Source: a virus
Length of the DNA stretch: 33,669 bases
Reading direction: 5' to 3' (one strand)
IMG/VR virus record: IMGVR_UViG_3300020603_000071
Span: 1 to 33,669 of that record
Each line of letters opens with the position of its first letter. Within the stretch, counting starts at the first letter, position 1. Shown here piece after piece: positions 5,691-10,965 of the stretch. Below the pieces are notes generated by a model. It did not search any database and was not told the origin of the DNA. It worked only from the letters and a program-made list of their open reading frames with translations. Both the position numbers and the translations under genes were made by a program.

Positions 5691-7961
5691 TTAAGGTTGT
5701 TTAAATTTTAAAGTTCCCATTCTGGGCCAAGTTTGTCCAGAAGTTTTTCTAACTTTTTCTGCAACTCTTGGGAGGATAGTTCCTTTTAATGGTCTATCTT
5801 GCCTGTAATATAAGTATCTATTTCCAGAACTTTGAAGATTGTAATTATCTAAGTATGCATTATATGAAGTTATTTTTGGGTTGGCACCTACATGAAGATC
5901 TATTTGTGTATTTGCATTTTCATAGAATGTCATTTCCCAAAATAATGTAGGAGAACCAAGAACTCCTCCACTATAAGAACTATGCCCCTCAAATCTAACT
6001 CTATAAGTTCTGTTGGGAATTGTTCCTTCAACACCATAATAAATTCTTTGAGCAGATCCATCTGCCGATGAAATTTGTATTTTTGGAATTGCTGGTGTAG
6101 TTGTATTGTAACTCCAACCTATACCTGCATCATAAGTATCTGTTGGTTTAGTTCCAAACAAAACATAAGAGTTTGTATTTACAAAAATTGTAGAATAAGT
6201 AGATCCATTATATGAAATATTGAAAGGTAAATTTAATTGCCAAAATCCATCATCATTAAATCCATAATTAGAATTCCCAGTATCTGGTGTTGTAGATGCA
6301 GTTAAAGATGCAGCACCTAATAAATTATTTGCCAAAGAACTTAGTGTTGCTGCACTAGCACTAGTTACAATTCTTACAGATGTATTTGATGCAGGAACAA
6401 AAGATTCTGAACCTGTTATTTTTGAAGATGTATTAGATACAGAACTAACACCTTGATCAATGTATTGTGCTGAAGTTGGTTCAAATATTTGATTATTTTT
6501 AGAAATTCCTTGAATGTACTCAATTGCTTCATTATTAGTCATTCTTGGATACTGTTCTAATGCACATGCAATCAATCCACAAACATTTGGAGAAGCCATG
6601 CTGGTCCCAGAATACTTATCTATTTTATATGATGCATCTCTAAAATCAGTAGCAGGTCCTGAGTGAACAGAAGAAATGATATTTGATCCTGGTGCATAAA
6701 TTGCTATTCTTGGTCCAGTATTACTAAAAGTTGCTTTGGAATCATTTTTAAGTGCTCCAATGCATCCAACACAAATTGCAGTAGAGGCAGATGTATTGAC
6801 AGAACCTCTATGATAGTAATAATCGACTCCACCTTCAACTATTCTATTATTATAATCTTGTCCACCAGGAGAATCTATTTTATAAGATGAGTTTCCAGCA
6901 GCTCCAACAACAATCACCCCATCATCAATAGCATCTTCTATATCTGCTACATCATCTGGAAACCAACCTTCAATATAAACATTAGAAAAATCAAATTTAA
7001 TTATTCCACGTTGTTGAAGTGCAGCATCTGTAAATCCAGATGATAAAGTTGCACCTCTCCAAACAATTGAACTAATTTGAGATCTTGTAATGGTTATATT
7101 GTATCCCCAACTGTTGTTAATGATAGTTGGATTTCTTAGTCCTGTTGCTGGATTGACTGACTTGTTTAAATGAAAAGCCCTTGCATAGTCAAATGGAAAA
7201 AATCCTGCAATTTGACCATCCCCATACACATACAAGTTATAAACATTAGCATCTCTTGCCCATCCTTGTGAGTTTCCTGCTGCTGTTCCTGCTACGTGCA
7301 TTCCATGATCATCACCATATGCAGTATATGTTGCTGGATATGTATATGTGCCATTAGATCCATGTCCTGCAAATTGATTTAAAGAATGCCAGTTAAATTG
7401 AACTACTCTTGTTCCACCAGTTCCATTAGCATTTACTGCCATTTCAGGATGATTTGGATTGACAAATCCATCTATAATAACCACATCAACATTTTTTCCA
7501 GAACTTGTTGCAGTAATTATTCCAGAAACTCCAAGAGTTGCATCAGATCCCCAATCACTTCTTTGTTGTCCTTCAATACATCTAAGAAGTCCCCAATTTC
7601 TATATGAGTTTGCAACAGATGAAGATTTGTTCCACCCAGAAGTATCTTCTGACCATCCTCTTGGAGTTATTGTTGCAGAATCTTTGAGTTTTTTGGGAAT
7701 AATACTTAAAACTCTTTCATCTTGACTTAAAGTTTCAACTTCTTCTGAACTTAGATGATAATGAGTATTTCTTGAAATAGATCTTCTTTCTGCACATTCA
7801 ACGCATCTATCTGGAACATATTCTGTCCCACCAGGAGTTTCTAAATCATCATAAAAAGATTCTAAGTCTTCTTTATTTTTTAAAGTTACAATATATTCAT
7901 CTATTTCATCTAATTCAAAAGAAGAAGCTGTATTTAAATTTTGATATCTTCTATTTTGCAT
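5691..7961 (-). CDS. Subtilisin-like (S8 family) serine protease with virion-type C-terminal module
   Basis: This 756-residue protein (from ATG 7961) looks like an intact serine endopeptidase. The catalytic triad is visible: D164 in VVIIDGFVNP, H219 in DDHGMHVAGTAAG and S454 in YSGTSMASPNVCG. The oxyanion-hole Asn is N357 in VVVGAAGNSS. Residues 23-90 (DEYIVTLKN to RVLSIIPKK) resemble an inhibitor I9-type propeptide, with a CVEC pair inside. No signal peptide is seen. From about residue 560 a second domain begins (DDGFWQLNLPF, IFVNTNSYVLFG, RIYYGVEGTIPNRTYRVRFE), a type I know from marine phage tail and fibre proteins, so the enzyme may be carried on the virion. A TTG at 7982 would add seven residues; I prefer the ATG because it follows the upstream stop at once and has GGAAAG before it. 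Substrate is unknown: host surface, a competitor, or phage protein maturation are all possible. Confidence 0.9.
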   Translation of the reverse strand: MQNRRYQNLNTASSFELDEIDEYIVTLKNKEDLESFYDDLETPGGTEYVPDRCVECAERRSISRNTHYHLSSEEVETLSQDERVLSIIPKKLKDSATITPRGWSEDTSGWNKSSSVANSYRNWGLLRCIEGQQRSDWGSDATLGVSGIITATSSGKNVDVVIIDGFVNPNHPEMAVNANGTGGTRVVQFNWHSLNQFAGHGSNGTYTYPATYTAYGDDHGMHVAGTAAGNSQGWARDANVYNLYVYGDGQIAGFFPFDYARAFHLNKSVNPATGLRNPTIINNSWGYNITITRSQISSIVWRGATLSSGFTDAALQQRGIIKFDFSNVYIEGWFPDDVADIEDAIDDGVIVVGAAGNSSYKIDSPGGQDYNNRIVEGGVDYYYHRGSVNTSASTAICVGCIGALKNDSKATFSNTGPRIAIYAPGSNIISSVHSGPATDFRDASYKIDKYSGTSMASPNVCGLIACALEQYPRMTNNEAIEYIQGISKNNQIFEPTSAQYIDQGVSSVSNTSSKITGSESFVPASNTSVRIVTSASAATLSSLANNLLGAASLTASTTPDTGNSNYGFNDDGFWQLNLPFNISYNGSTYSTIFVNTNSYVLFGTKPTDTYDAGIGWSYNTTTPAIPKIQISSADGSAQRIYYGVEGTIPNRTYRVRFEGHSSYSGGVLGSPTLFWEMTFYENANTQIDLHVGANPKITSYNAYLDNYNLQSSGNRYLYYRQDRPLKGTILPRVAEKVRKTSGQTWPRMGTLKFKQP

Positions 7962-7962
7962 A

Positions 7963-9561
7963 TCAACTTTCCATTTGAACAAGAGTTAATGTCACAGTAA
8001 TGTTTGCATTAGAACCTGATTTATTAACTACTTTTGCATAAACATTTGTAGAAGCTGGATCATCATTATTGAATCCAATTGTTCCTGGTGTAATTAATTG
8101 AGTTGTTGCACTAGTAGTAATAATTTCAGCAATTACACCAGAACCTGGAAGTGGATCAGTTGTTTCTGTTCTGGAAGCATCATTAGATCTTGATGCAGAA
8201 TCAATGTAAATTGTAACCCATGCAGCAGCAGAGGTTTGAATTTTTGCCAACAAATATGTTTTAAATCCTGTGATAGTTATATTTGCTGATGCTCCATTTG
8301 CAATAGTTCCAGTTGATTGAGATGCTGTTACTCTTCCTCCAAGAGCTCCACCAGAAGCACCTTGTGGACCTTGAATTCCCTGTGGTCCAAATCCCTGTGG
8401 ACCTTGAACACCTTGAGGTCCTTGAACACCTTGTGGACCTAGAATTCCCTGTGGTCCAAATCCCTGTGGACCTTGAACACCTTGAGGTCCTTGAACACCT
8501 TGAGCACCTTGTGGACCATAAGTTCCTTGAGATCCAGTTGAACCTTGAACCCCTGGTGGACCTTGAACACCTTGTACACCTTGTGCACCTTGTGGACCAC
8601 CACCTGCTGCACCTTGAATACCTTGAGAACCTTGAGGTCCAGAAACACCTTGAGCACCTTGTACACCTTGAGTACCTTGTACACCTTGAGTACCTTGTAC
8701 ACCTTGAGGTCCAGAAACACCTTGAGCACCTTGTACACCTTGAGTACCTTGTACACCTTGAGGTCCAGAAACACCTTGAGCACCTTGTACACCTTGAGCA
8801 CCTTGTACACCTTGAGCACCTGTAGGTCCAACATCAGTAATTAATATTGTTCCAGACATTCCAATATGAACTTGGCAAATATAATATAAAGTATTAGGAG
8901 CATCATAAGGAACCGCAAATGTAATAGTCCCACTAGCAGTTCCATTGTTTGTTACACCACTACTATAAGCACTTCCAGTTCCTGTAACTTGTGCAGTTTT
9001 AATCCAGAATGGATGACCAGAAGCATTAATGCTAAAAGTGTAAGTAAATCCACGCAGTAAATTTAAAGTTGGATTACCAGATGCACCATCTATTGTATAT
9101 GAACTTGCTCCACTATTTGTTACTGAATAAGTTCTACTACCAACAGCACCTTGAGCACCCTGAGATCCCACAACACCTTGAGCACCTTGAGATCCTTGTG
9201 GTCCTATAAATCCTTGTGCACCTTGAATACCTTGAAATCCTTGTGCACCTTGTGGACCTTGTGTGCCTTGTGGACCACCACCTGCTGCACCTTGAATACC
9301 TTGAGAACCTTGAGGTCCAGAAACACCTTGAGCACCTTGAGCACCAGCACTACCTGTACCACCAGTAGCACCTTGAGCACCCTGTGGACCTAAAAATCCT
9401 TGGGGTCCTTGTGCGCCACTAATAGTAGTTAAGTTTACACCATTGCCAAAAGTAGCATAAATTTCACTAAAATTTTGATTTATCTTAGTGGCACCTGTGA
9501 TAAGCGTATCACCAGTTCCATCATTAGGAGCAGAACCAGTAGATATTATTTGCTTTGCCAT
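7963..9561 (-). CDS. Collagen-like fibre protein with embedded cupredoxin-like domain
   Basis: This 532-residue protein is probably a virion fibre. Residues 1-45 ([20 protein letters not shown], then [13 protein letters not shown]) are a common phage tail-fibre N-terminal anchor. Two Gly-X-Y arrays, about 50-140 and 250-405, are dominated by GPQG and GVQG triplets and should form a collagen-like triple helix. Between them, about 143-245, is a compact beta domain with H183 (GHPFWIK) and C229-x2-H232-x2-M235 (YICQVHIGM), which together match a type 1 copper site. The last 125 residues ([20 protein letters not shown], then [13 protein letters not shown]) are a C-terminal domain frequent in marine phage structural proteins, perhaps a trimerising tip. 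The gene lies between gp14 and gp15, where T4 has nothing, next to the protease. Fibre identity is well supported; copper binding is inferred. Confidence 0.85.
8373..8502 (-). repeat. 61-bp perfect direct repeat with 69-bp period
   Basis: Positions 8373-8433 and 8442-8502 are identical by eye. The offset of 69 bp is 23 codons, so it is an in-frame tandem duplication. Each copy encodes a block with [10 protein letters not shown], in which the Gly-X-Y phase is broken at FG. Confidence 0.85.
8588..8661 (-). repeat. 74-bp direct repeat, copy A (C-terminal side of the cupredoxin domain)
   Basis: This is identical by eye to 9266-9339 and encodes the segment containing [20 protein letters not shown], including the same GGG break in the Gly-X-Y phase. 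The two copies flank the cupredoxin-like domain. The distance between them is 678 bp, exactly 226 codons. Confidence 0.88.
9145..9415 (-). repeat. N-terminal collagen-like Gly-X-Y tandem array
   Basis: This is the first Gly-X-Y array of the fibre, about 90 residues of GAQG, GPQG, GSQG and GIQG triplets between the anchor domain and the cupredoxin-like domain. It is less regular at DNA level than the second array. Confidence 0.85.
9266..9339 (-). repeat. 74-bp direct repeat, copy B (N-terminal side of the cupredoxin domain)
   Basis: This is the partner of 8588-8661, same orientation and same codon frame. Recombination between the copies would remove or exchange the domain between them without a frameshift. 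Confidence 0.88.
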
Positions 9562-9581: not shown

Positions 9582-9589
9582 TATTTATT
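9582..9589 (-). promoter_or_regulatory. Candidate late promoter (AATAAATA) before the fibre gene
   Basis: The minus strand reads AATAAATA, one mismatch from the T4 late consensus TATAAATA, 20 nt upstream of the fibre ATG. It overlaps the gp14 stop in an AT-rich tract (TTTAAATAAATAAAAATAAA), so chance composition is a real alternative. Confidence 0.4.
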
Positions 9590-10965
9590 TAAACTTCCCC
9601 AAAGGGATTTATTTCTGTGAAGTCTACAATCTTATCAGATTCTTCTTGAATTTCATCATTAGTATCATATGAATTGACTAATTCAAATTCACCATACTCT
9701 TGAATTCTGTACATGGCACTTGATGCTGCACCAACAACAATGTCGCCAACTTGGAAGTCAGTTCCCATCCCAGTGACATTTAATTTTCTTGTTAAAGGTT
9801 CCCATGATTTTACTAATCCACTTGCCCCAGATAGATTTGCAAACACTTGTTCTCCAATAATAAAGTTTCCTGATGCAACAGTAGCACCAGCACCAATAGT
9901 TATAATTGGGGCAACTGTATAACCATATCCAGCATTAATGATTCTAATAGTTGAAATTCCACCTTGACCATTTAAGAATGCTTGCCCAATAGCAGTTTGT
10001 CCAATTCCACCAGGACCAGAGAATGTGACAGTAGGAGGTTCATAGTAACCTTTACCACCATAAGTCATGCTTACATTCTTAACACTTCCTGTTGTTGCAA
10101 TTCCTACCTGAACAGAAGCTCCATATCCTCCACCACCAAAGAATGTAACTGATGGAGGTTTTTGATATAAGTATCCACTTCCACCATCTTCAATAAAGAC
10201 TTTATCTAAACTTTGCCCAGAGGTTAATCTTCTGGCACTTGTCATAATGCCAACAATTCTTCCTTTACTACCAGAAATTGGCGAAGACACAACCATGGAA
10301 GGTGTTGATGAATATCTATAACCACTATTGACTATGTTTACATATTGTATACCACCACTTGAAATTGTAGACTGTGCTGTTGCAGTTCCTCCAAGCTCTG
10401 CAAGAGTCAGTAGTGCACCATATCCAATGTCTTTGAAATTATCATCAAGGTCTTTAATACTTGTAGAAATTTCTTCATCTTCATATTCAAACAGTTCGCA
10501 TCTCAACTCATAAACATAGTTTTTTTGAAGTTGATAAAATGGTTTTCTATTTTCAACATACTTAATCTCCATTACGCTGTCAGATAATGGAACATAAATC
10601 AAATCACCTTCATAAGGTCTTGATGAACCAGCAACATCTGGTATAACCTTCATCAACTCTGCAATATACAAGTCAAAACGTTCTTTTGAAATAACCAAAG
10701 TCATTTCATCAGTTACTTTTACTCCAAACTTACTCATTATAATACTATTGGAATCAAATCCTTCATAAGATGAAAGATATGCTTCAATAGGAAATGCATT
10801 CTTAAATTTGGAATAGATCACATCCTTTATAATTTTTCCTTTGGATACAATCTGTCTTGGCATGTAGTAAACTTCAATGCCATACATCTTCAACTGTTCG
10901 TTGATAAGATCTTGAATAAGACCTTGTTCTCCTTTTGTACCTTGGATAAAAAATGGATTTAACAT
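9589..10965 (-). CDS. 14: Neck protein gp14, enlarged
   Basis: This is the neck (head closure) protein that joins the filled head to the tail. The N-terminus MLNPFFIQGTKGEQGLIQDL, then INEQLKMYGIEVYYMPRQIV, is the classic T4-like gp14 opening, and the C-terminus (VDFTEINPFGEV) is also typical. At 458 residues it is far longer than T4 gp14 (256). The extra length is accounted for by an insert at about residues 205-360 made of four tandem beta repeats of the form V-x-I-x-x-x-G-x-G-Y-x-x-x-P-x-V (for example VNIVNSGYRYSSTP, VSMTYGGKGYYEPPTV, IRIINAGYGYTVAP). The same repeat appears in the baseplate proteins. The ATG at 10965 has AGGA 4 nt upstream. The gp13 stop lies immediately before. Confidence 0.93.
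   Translation of the reverse strand: MLNPFFIQGTKGEQGLIQDLINEQLKMYGIEVYYMPRQIVSKGKIIKDVIYSKFKNAFPIEAYLSSYEGFDSNSIIMSKFGVKVTDEMTLVISKERFDLYIAELMKVIPDVAGSSRPYEGDLIYVPLSDSVMEIKYVENRKPFYQLQKNYVYELRCELFEYEDEEISTSIKDLDDNFKDIGYGALLTLAELGGTATAQSTISSGGIQYVNIVNSGYRYSSTPSMVVSSPISGSKGRIVGIMTSARRLTSGQSLDKVFIEDGGSGYLYQKPPSVTFFGGGGYGASVQVGIATTGSVKNVSMTYGGKGYYEPPTVTFSGPGGIGQTAIGQAFLNGQGGISTIRIINAGYGYTVAPIITIGAGATVASGNFIIGEQVFANLSGASGLVKSWEPLTRKLNVTGMGTDFQVGDIVVGAASSAMYRIQEYGEFELVNSYDTNDEIQEESDKIVDFTEINPFGEV

Follow-up and report, generated by a model that had tools for sequence, protein, structure and literature searches.

A predicted cupredoxin domain with a complete type 1 copper ligand set in a collagen-like fibre of a T4-like cyanophage

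Can a fibre on the outside of a phage particle hold a copper site? The question is raised by one gene of a 33,669-base virus fragment (IMGVR_UViG_3300020603_000071, positions 1 to 33,669; this whole stretch is referred to as the window). A sequence-only reading of the window had placed a beta-rich domain of about 100 residues between two Gly-X-Y arrays of a fibre, had noticed in it H183 and the motif C229-x2-H232-x2-M235, with the spacing of amicyanin, and had proposed a copper-binding module of cupredoxin type.

The window belongs to a T4-like cyanophage. Its minus strand carries T4-like structural genes recognised by Pfam and PHROG profiles (baseplate wedge, neck protein, tail sheath stabiliser and terminase small subunit), and the baseplate wedge protein of Synechococcus phage S-SRM01 is 54% identical to that of the window. 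Such cyanophages rank with the most abundant viruses in sunlit water. The neck protein (9589-10965, minus strand) has an additional C-terminal half, approximately residues 184-437, which matches baseplate and virion-structural PHROGs. The fibre gene and its neighbour are organised as follows.

7963..9561, minus strand: tail-fibre/baseplate-connector gene, 532 aa (Pfam T4_gp9_10_N, 2.3e-07; Collagen, 4.6e-33)
9439..9561, minus strand: N-terminal T4 gp9/gp10-type anchor, residues 1-41 (Pfam PF07880, residues 3-41)
9139..9417, minus strand: first Gly-X-Y array, residues 49-141 (translation, Pfam Collagen)
8827..9138, minus strand: predicted cupredoxin domain, residues 142-245 (AlphaFold2, Foldseek, VIA)
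9013..9015, minus strand: H183, putative first Cu ligand, in G-H-P-F (invariant in 56 distinct close copies)
8875..8877, minus strand: C229, putative thiolate ligand of Cu, closing the penultimate strand (conservation, AlphaFold2 model)
8866..8868, minus strand: H232, putative Cu ligand, loop before the last strand (conservation, AlphaFold2 model)
8857..8859, minus strand: M235, putative axial Cu ligand (conservation)
8344..8829, minus strand: second Gly-X-Y array, residues 245-406, with short breaks (translation, Gly-X-Y scan)
7966..8340, minus strand: C-terminal beta domain, residues 408-532 (phrog_9627/phrog_15343)
5691..7982, minus strand: subtilase (Peptidase_S8) gene (Pfam PF00082, 3.2e-26; phrog_9158)

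Judged by its sequence, the gene encodes a collagen-like fibre of a T4-like phage, in which a gp9/gp10-type N-terminal anchor, a Gly-X-Y array, the cupredoxin domain, another Gly-X-Y array and a C-terminal domain follow each other. The N-terminus scores 31.5 bits against the PF07880 (T4_gp9_10_N) model, above the cut-off of 25, in a match that spans only model positions 1-39 of 175. The C-terminal beta domain is likely to be the fibre tip. Its best AlphaFold2 model has a pLDDT of 91.5 and the other four models have 75-79; a structure search of the PDB gave no match at E<=0.001. The same domain is common to a few other phages.

The subtilase gene lies directly downstream of the fibre gene and overlaps it by 20 nt. 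In related phages a subtilase and the cupredoxin domain are fused into one protein (loci L073-L076, L086, L091, L240, L242 and L261) or encoded by adjoining genes (L002, L004 and S-SCSM2R). The pairing thus recurs among phages.

Translation of the fibre gene bears out the positions and spacing of H183 and C229-x2-H232-x2-M235 between the two Gly-X-Y arrays. These four residues are the sole His, Cys and Met residues in the whole 532-residue fibre besides Met1 and Met530, and the C-x2-H-x2-M motif is found in no other of the 16 main open reading frames of the window. The domain thus carries His, Cys, His and Met in the order of a type 1 copper site, and Cys, the second His and Met are grouped around the loop that leads to the final strand.

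For modelling with AlphaFold2, 42 copies of the domain from bacterial genomes, viral contigs and the window itself were aligned. The model of residues 142-245 has eight strands, with a mean pLDDT of 96.8 and a pTM of 0.89, in agreement with the beta-rich domain of about 100 residues described earlier, whose limits of 8820-9135 are practically those found here (8827-9138). In the numbering of the model, the residue corresponding to H183 precedes strand 44-47, C88 (C229 of the fibre) closes strand 83-88, and H91 and M94 (H232 and M235) are situated in the loop before the last strand, 95-101. This predicted placement of the ligands is the canonical cupredoxin arrangement. Foldseek found 86 matches in the PDB at E<=0.001, with a best E-value of 2.4e-05. 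The best 50 of the 86 are all cupredoxins or proteins with cupredoxin domains, including rusticyanin, AcoP, plastocyanin, amicyanin, auracyanin, CueO, laccases, copper nitrite reductase, N2O reductase and CuA domains. Upon superposition with VIA-align, 89 residues match residues 26-134 of the Hyphomicrobium copper nitrite reductase (2dv6) with a Z-score of 10.9 and an rmsd of 1.9, and 92 residues match rusticyanin with a Z-score of 10.9 and an rmsd of 2.0; the Z-score to two-domain laccases is about 10. The prediction and the structural comparison together support a cupredoxin fold for residues 142-245, as had been proposed. A similar predicted fold (TM 0.78-0.80) is present in small "beta-sandwich proteins" of Pithovirus and Marseillevirus LCPAC/LCMAC (BFVD A0A481Z6J5, A0A481Z7Q7 and A0A481YVH3).

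The domain lies outside the Pfam Copper-bind and NCBIfam amicyanin families by the cut-offs of those models. The window domain scores 13.1 bits against Copper-bind (PF00127), under the gathering cut-off of 21.2; the best match among its relatives, at E 0.0012, is below the cut-off, as are three fibre or subtilase copies with E-values of 1.8e-4 to 4.6e-4 per phage genome. The amicyanin model TIGR02657 does not match the window domain, and its best relative, with an E-value of 0.0072, is below the cut-off. Sequence searches of the PDB with the domain gave matches at chance level (auracyanin, E 0.2; copper nitrite reductase, E 0.15). A profile-profile comparison was made by hhalign against nine cupredoxins recovered by the Copper-bind model. 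It places His on His, Cys on Cys, His on His and Met on Met, with an E-value of 6.5e-05 and a probability of 64%, so that the complete ligand set in the right order, as first noticed, corresponds ligand for ligand to that of known cupredoxins. Two other candidate families, the carbohydrate-binding domain CBM_4_9 (E 0.013) and DUF4352, give partial, sub-threshold matches and were rejected. The Pfam At5g54830-like domain matches 19 of the 42 aligned members, below the cut-off in those scanned in detail, and may be a distant eukaryotic relative.

The family to which the domain belongs is widespread. Of 50,697 phage records, 362 contain a match at E<=0.01, and almost all of these are Synechococcus or Prochlorococcus phages; a single query of IMG/VR found more than 580 stretches, which is a lower bound. 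It also occurs in a podovirus and in a lake actinobacterial phage, and one genome holds up to four matches. At least eight consecutive Gly-X-Y triplets are found in 87 of 101 distinct open reading frames of the window type. Often the domain forms the C-terminal part of gp9 (baseplate wedge tail-fibre connector): the profile of phrog_677 (gp9) matches the domain at E 5.3e-28 over positions of about 306-410 of 412. In bacteria the domain is encoded at 26 loci with 38-69% identity, several of the proteins having visible signal peptides or lipoboxes. The placement of the domain in a collagen-like fibre therefore stands, but the domain is not confined to such fibres, since gp9 proteins, subtilases and bacterial proteins carry it as well. 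In marine alphaproteobacteria (OCS116/PS1/Rhodobiaceae), a protein of about 430 residues has two tandem copies, both with the His and C-x2-H-x2-M set (loci L102, L103, L107-L110, L112-L115, L117, L118, L121 and L122).

Capture of a photosynthetic plastocyanin is not favoured as the origin of the domain. In P-SSM2, S-SSM5, S-H9-1 and other phages a separate petE-like gene scores far above the domain, and in a tree of 91 rows, which is weakly resolved, the bacterial copies are mostly together and the window copy is among the fibre copies, close to secreted bacterial domains. In S-SCSM2R, a small domain protein beside a subtilase is annotated "PetE" (L083 2794-3300, XQU50115.1). By sequence this protein belongs to the fibre-type family, and the same record has a separate plastocyanin-like gene at position 79-321.

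The virion location of the family is supported by a relative. In S-SZBM1, residues 398-497 of protein 206 (S-SZBM1_206, 498 aa) form the domain, complete with the four ligands. The mass-spectrometric proteome of CsCl-purified S-SZBM1 virions includes this protein, identified by 9 peptides that cover 24.9% of it (PMC9146016). A domain-bearing protein is therefore present in a virion. This location, which the sequence-only reading had assumed, is established for that one relative, and synteny and the T4_gp9_10_N match would place the window fibre likewise.

The explanation that best fits these observations, with a probability of roughly 0.7, is that residues 142-245 are a true cupredoxin domain whose type 1 copper site is intact, that this domain forms a module of a trimeric, collagen-like fibre that hangs from the baseplate, and that copper probably stabilises the exposed knob. 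Copper binding itself is strongly suggested. The domain would be inserted as a module into the trimeric fibre, which would be attached to the baseplate through its gp9/gp10-type N-terminus. The cyanobacterial cytoplasm has little free copper. Because the fibre is made in the host cytoplasm without a signal peptide, and free copper is scarce there, the site is probably filled after lysis. The bound copper would most likely make the ligand loop of the exposed knob rigid, and the knob may act as a spacer or adhesin at the host surface. Pro184, directly after H183, means that the usual backbone NH at this position cannot bond to the Cys sulfur. V231, two residues after the Cys, could supply this bond as in azurin, a prediction concerning the second-shell geometry.

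All 56 distinct close copies (the window and 55 from viruses) have the four ligand residues unchanged, and likewise Pro184. The ligands persist in GenBank cyanophage copies with as little as about 30% identity, and almost all of the secreted homologues from bacteria have them too. The aligned copies that score at least 40 bits number 188: H-C-H-M is present in 183 and H-C-H-Q in one, and the other four are remote paralogues, of which an Opitutae protein contributes two and S-RIM phage baseplate proteins the other two. With the threshold raised to 100 bits, H-C-H-M is found in 150 of 151 copies, the remaining one being the H-C-H-Q copy, an acidobacterial lipoprotein-like protein (L104). A Gln in place of M235 is found in this bacterial protein and in one viral copy (L179), and it is the sole single-ligand change among well-scoring copies; natural cupredoxins are known to have an axial Gln in place of Met. 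A chance occurrence of the ligand set is ruled out by the 56 close copies and by the 183 of 188. Loss of the ligands in close homologues, which would have spoken against the copper proposal, was looked for, and the four residues were found to be kept. Conservation alone is not decisive, because Y227, G171, G202 and F176 are conserved as strongly as the ligands.

It is unlikely that the cupredoxin fold has been reused only as an adhesion or spacer module, with the four residues kept for packing and the domain metal-free in the virion. Such a role would agree with the equal conservation of other residues and with the frequent recruitment of beta-sandwich adhesion domains by tail fibres. It would also agree with the ligand-less versions of the fold in neighbouring baseplate genes and in the Opitutae protein. 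The baseplate gene beside gp9 encodes a sister domain that lacks the Cys, His and Met and has a variable first His; in S-SSM5 (L084), in the gene after gp9, the equivalent of a 13-residue stretch of the domain reads LYLFAYTTAGHG, and further equivalents are found in L125-L204. The fold therefore survives without these residues, all of which are retained by the copies in gp9 and in fibres. However, packing alone would permit replacement of Cys by Ala or Ser, or of His by Asn, whereas nearly all copies, in phages and in different bacterial phyla alike, retain H, C, H and M as a set, and decay of the site removes several ligands at once. This pattern supports selection on the complete ligand set.

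In a stronger form of the copper reading, the type 1 copper centres on T4-like cyanophage virions would be functional and redox-active and would serve at the host surface for electron exchange or copper-dependent docking, so that the virion would be a copper metalloprotein complex; this is doubtful. As a rival to structural copper, a redox-active site, exchanging electrons with the host envelope or exploiting a host copper receptor as a Trojan horse, is slightly less likely than the metal-free spacer. The complete type 1 set with its axial Met and the electron-transfer proteins among the fold neighbours are in its favour. However, the domain is situated in the middle of the fibre between collagen-like arrays, away from the tip, and no copper receptor of picocyanobacteria is known to serve as a phage receptor. 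A metal on the fibres of marine phages has been proposed for iron, bound by HxH motifs (the "Ferrojan horse"; PMC11705849). Least probable is that the domain binds a different soft metal, such as Zn, Fe or exclusively Cu(I), in a structural role: Zn(II) or Cu(I) would suit the four ligands, and the cytoplasm in which the fibre folds offers more Zn than Cu, but the choice of Met or Gln as axial residue, like the cupredoxin fold, is a hallmark of type 1 copper.

If the preferred assignment, a structural type 1 copper site, is correct, many marine phage particles may carry copper; should both gp9-type connectors and fibres do so, each virion could hold many copper atoms. This would matter for the adsorption of the phages, for the stability of their particles and for the chemistry of copper in the sea. 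The annotation is also corrected, as the domain is present in hundreds of phage records and exceeds no Pfam or NCBIfam cut-off, and its proteins are labelled "hypothetical", "tail fiber" or, once, "PetE". A literature search that covered few subscription papers found no description of a cupredoxin in a phage tail fibre or virion, nor of a plastocyanin-like or copper-binding domain in cyanophage tail fibres.

Compared with known copper proteins, the window domain has the cupredoxin fold and the His...Cys-x2-His...Met order of amicyanin and plastocyanin, and it would function as a blue copper domain provided that copper is bound. The spacing C-x2-H-x2-M is that of the amicyanin loop, and to this extent the proposed likeness holds; identity with amicyanin does not, because Pro184 takes the place of the Asn that directly follows the first His in amicyanin and plastocyanin and that forms part of the second shell in most mononuclear cupredoxins. 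The GHPFWIKT...TNNG region is also distinct, and the domain is part of a virion fibre, whereas amicyanin and plastocyanin are soluble electron carriers. Rusticyanin and AcoP of Acidithiobacillus, the best Foldseek matches (E 2.4e-05 and 4.4e-05), have about 18-24% identity to the domain; they are free periplasmic electron carriers with longer ligand loops. The H-P-F at the first ligand resembles the HPF part of the HPFHLHG motif of multicopper oxidases. Copper nitrite reductase and the laccases are enzymes, whereas the window protein has a single cupredoxin domain without a trinuclear or type 2 site and is no enzyme as far as its sequence indicates. In cyanophage gp9 (phrog_677) the C-terminal 100 residues or so are the same domain with the ligands kept; unlike the window fibre, none of 60 gp9 copies has Gly-X-Y arrays, and none of the gp9 annotations examined mentions copper. 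The HxH iron sites of T4 gp37 and marine phages (PMC11705849) likewise place a metal on a phage fibre; those sites are octahedral and bind iron, whereas that of the window domain is a putative type 1 copper site within a single domain.
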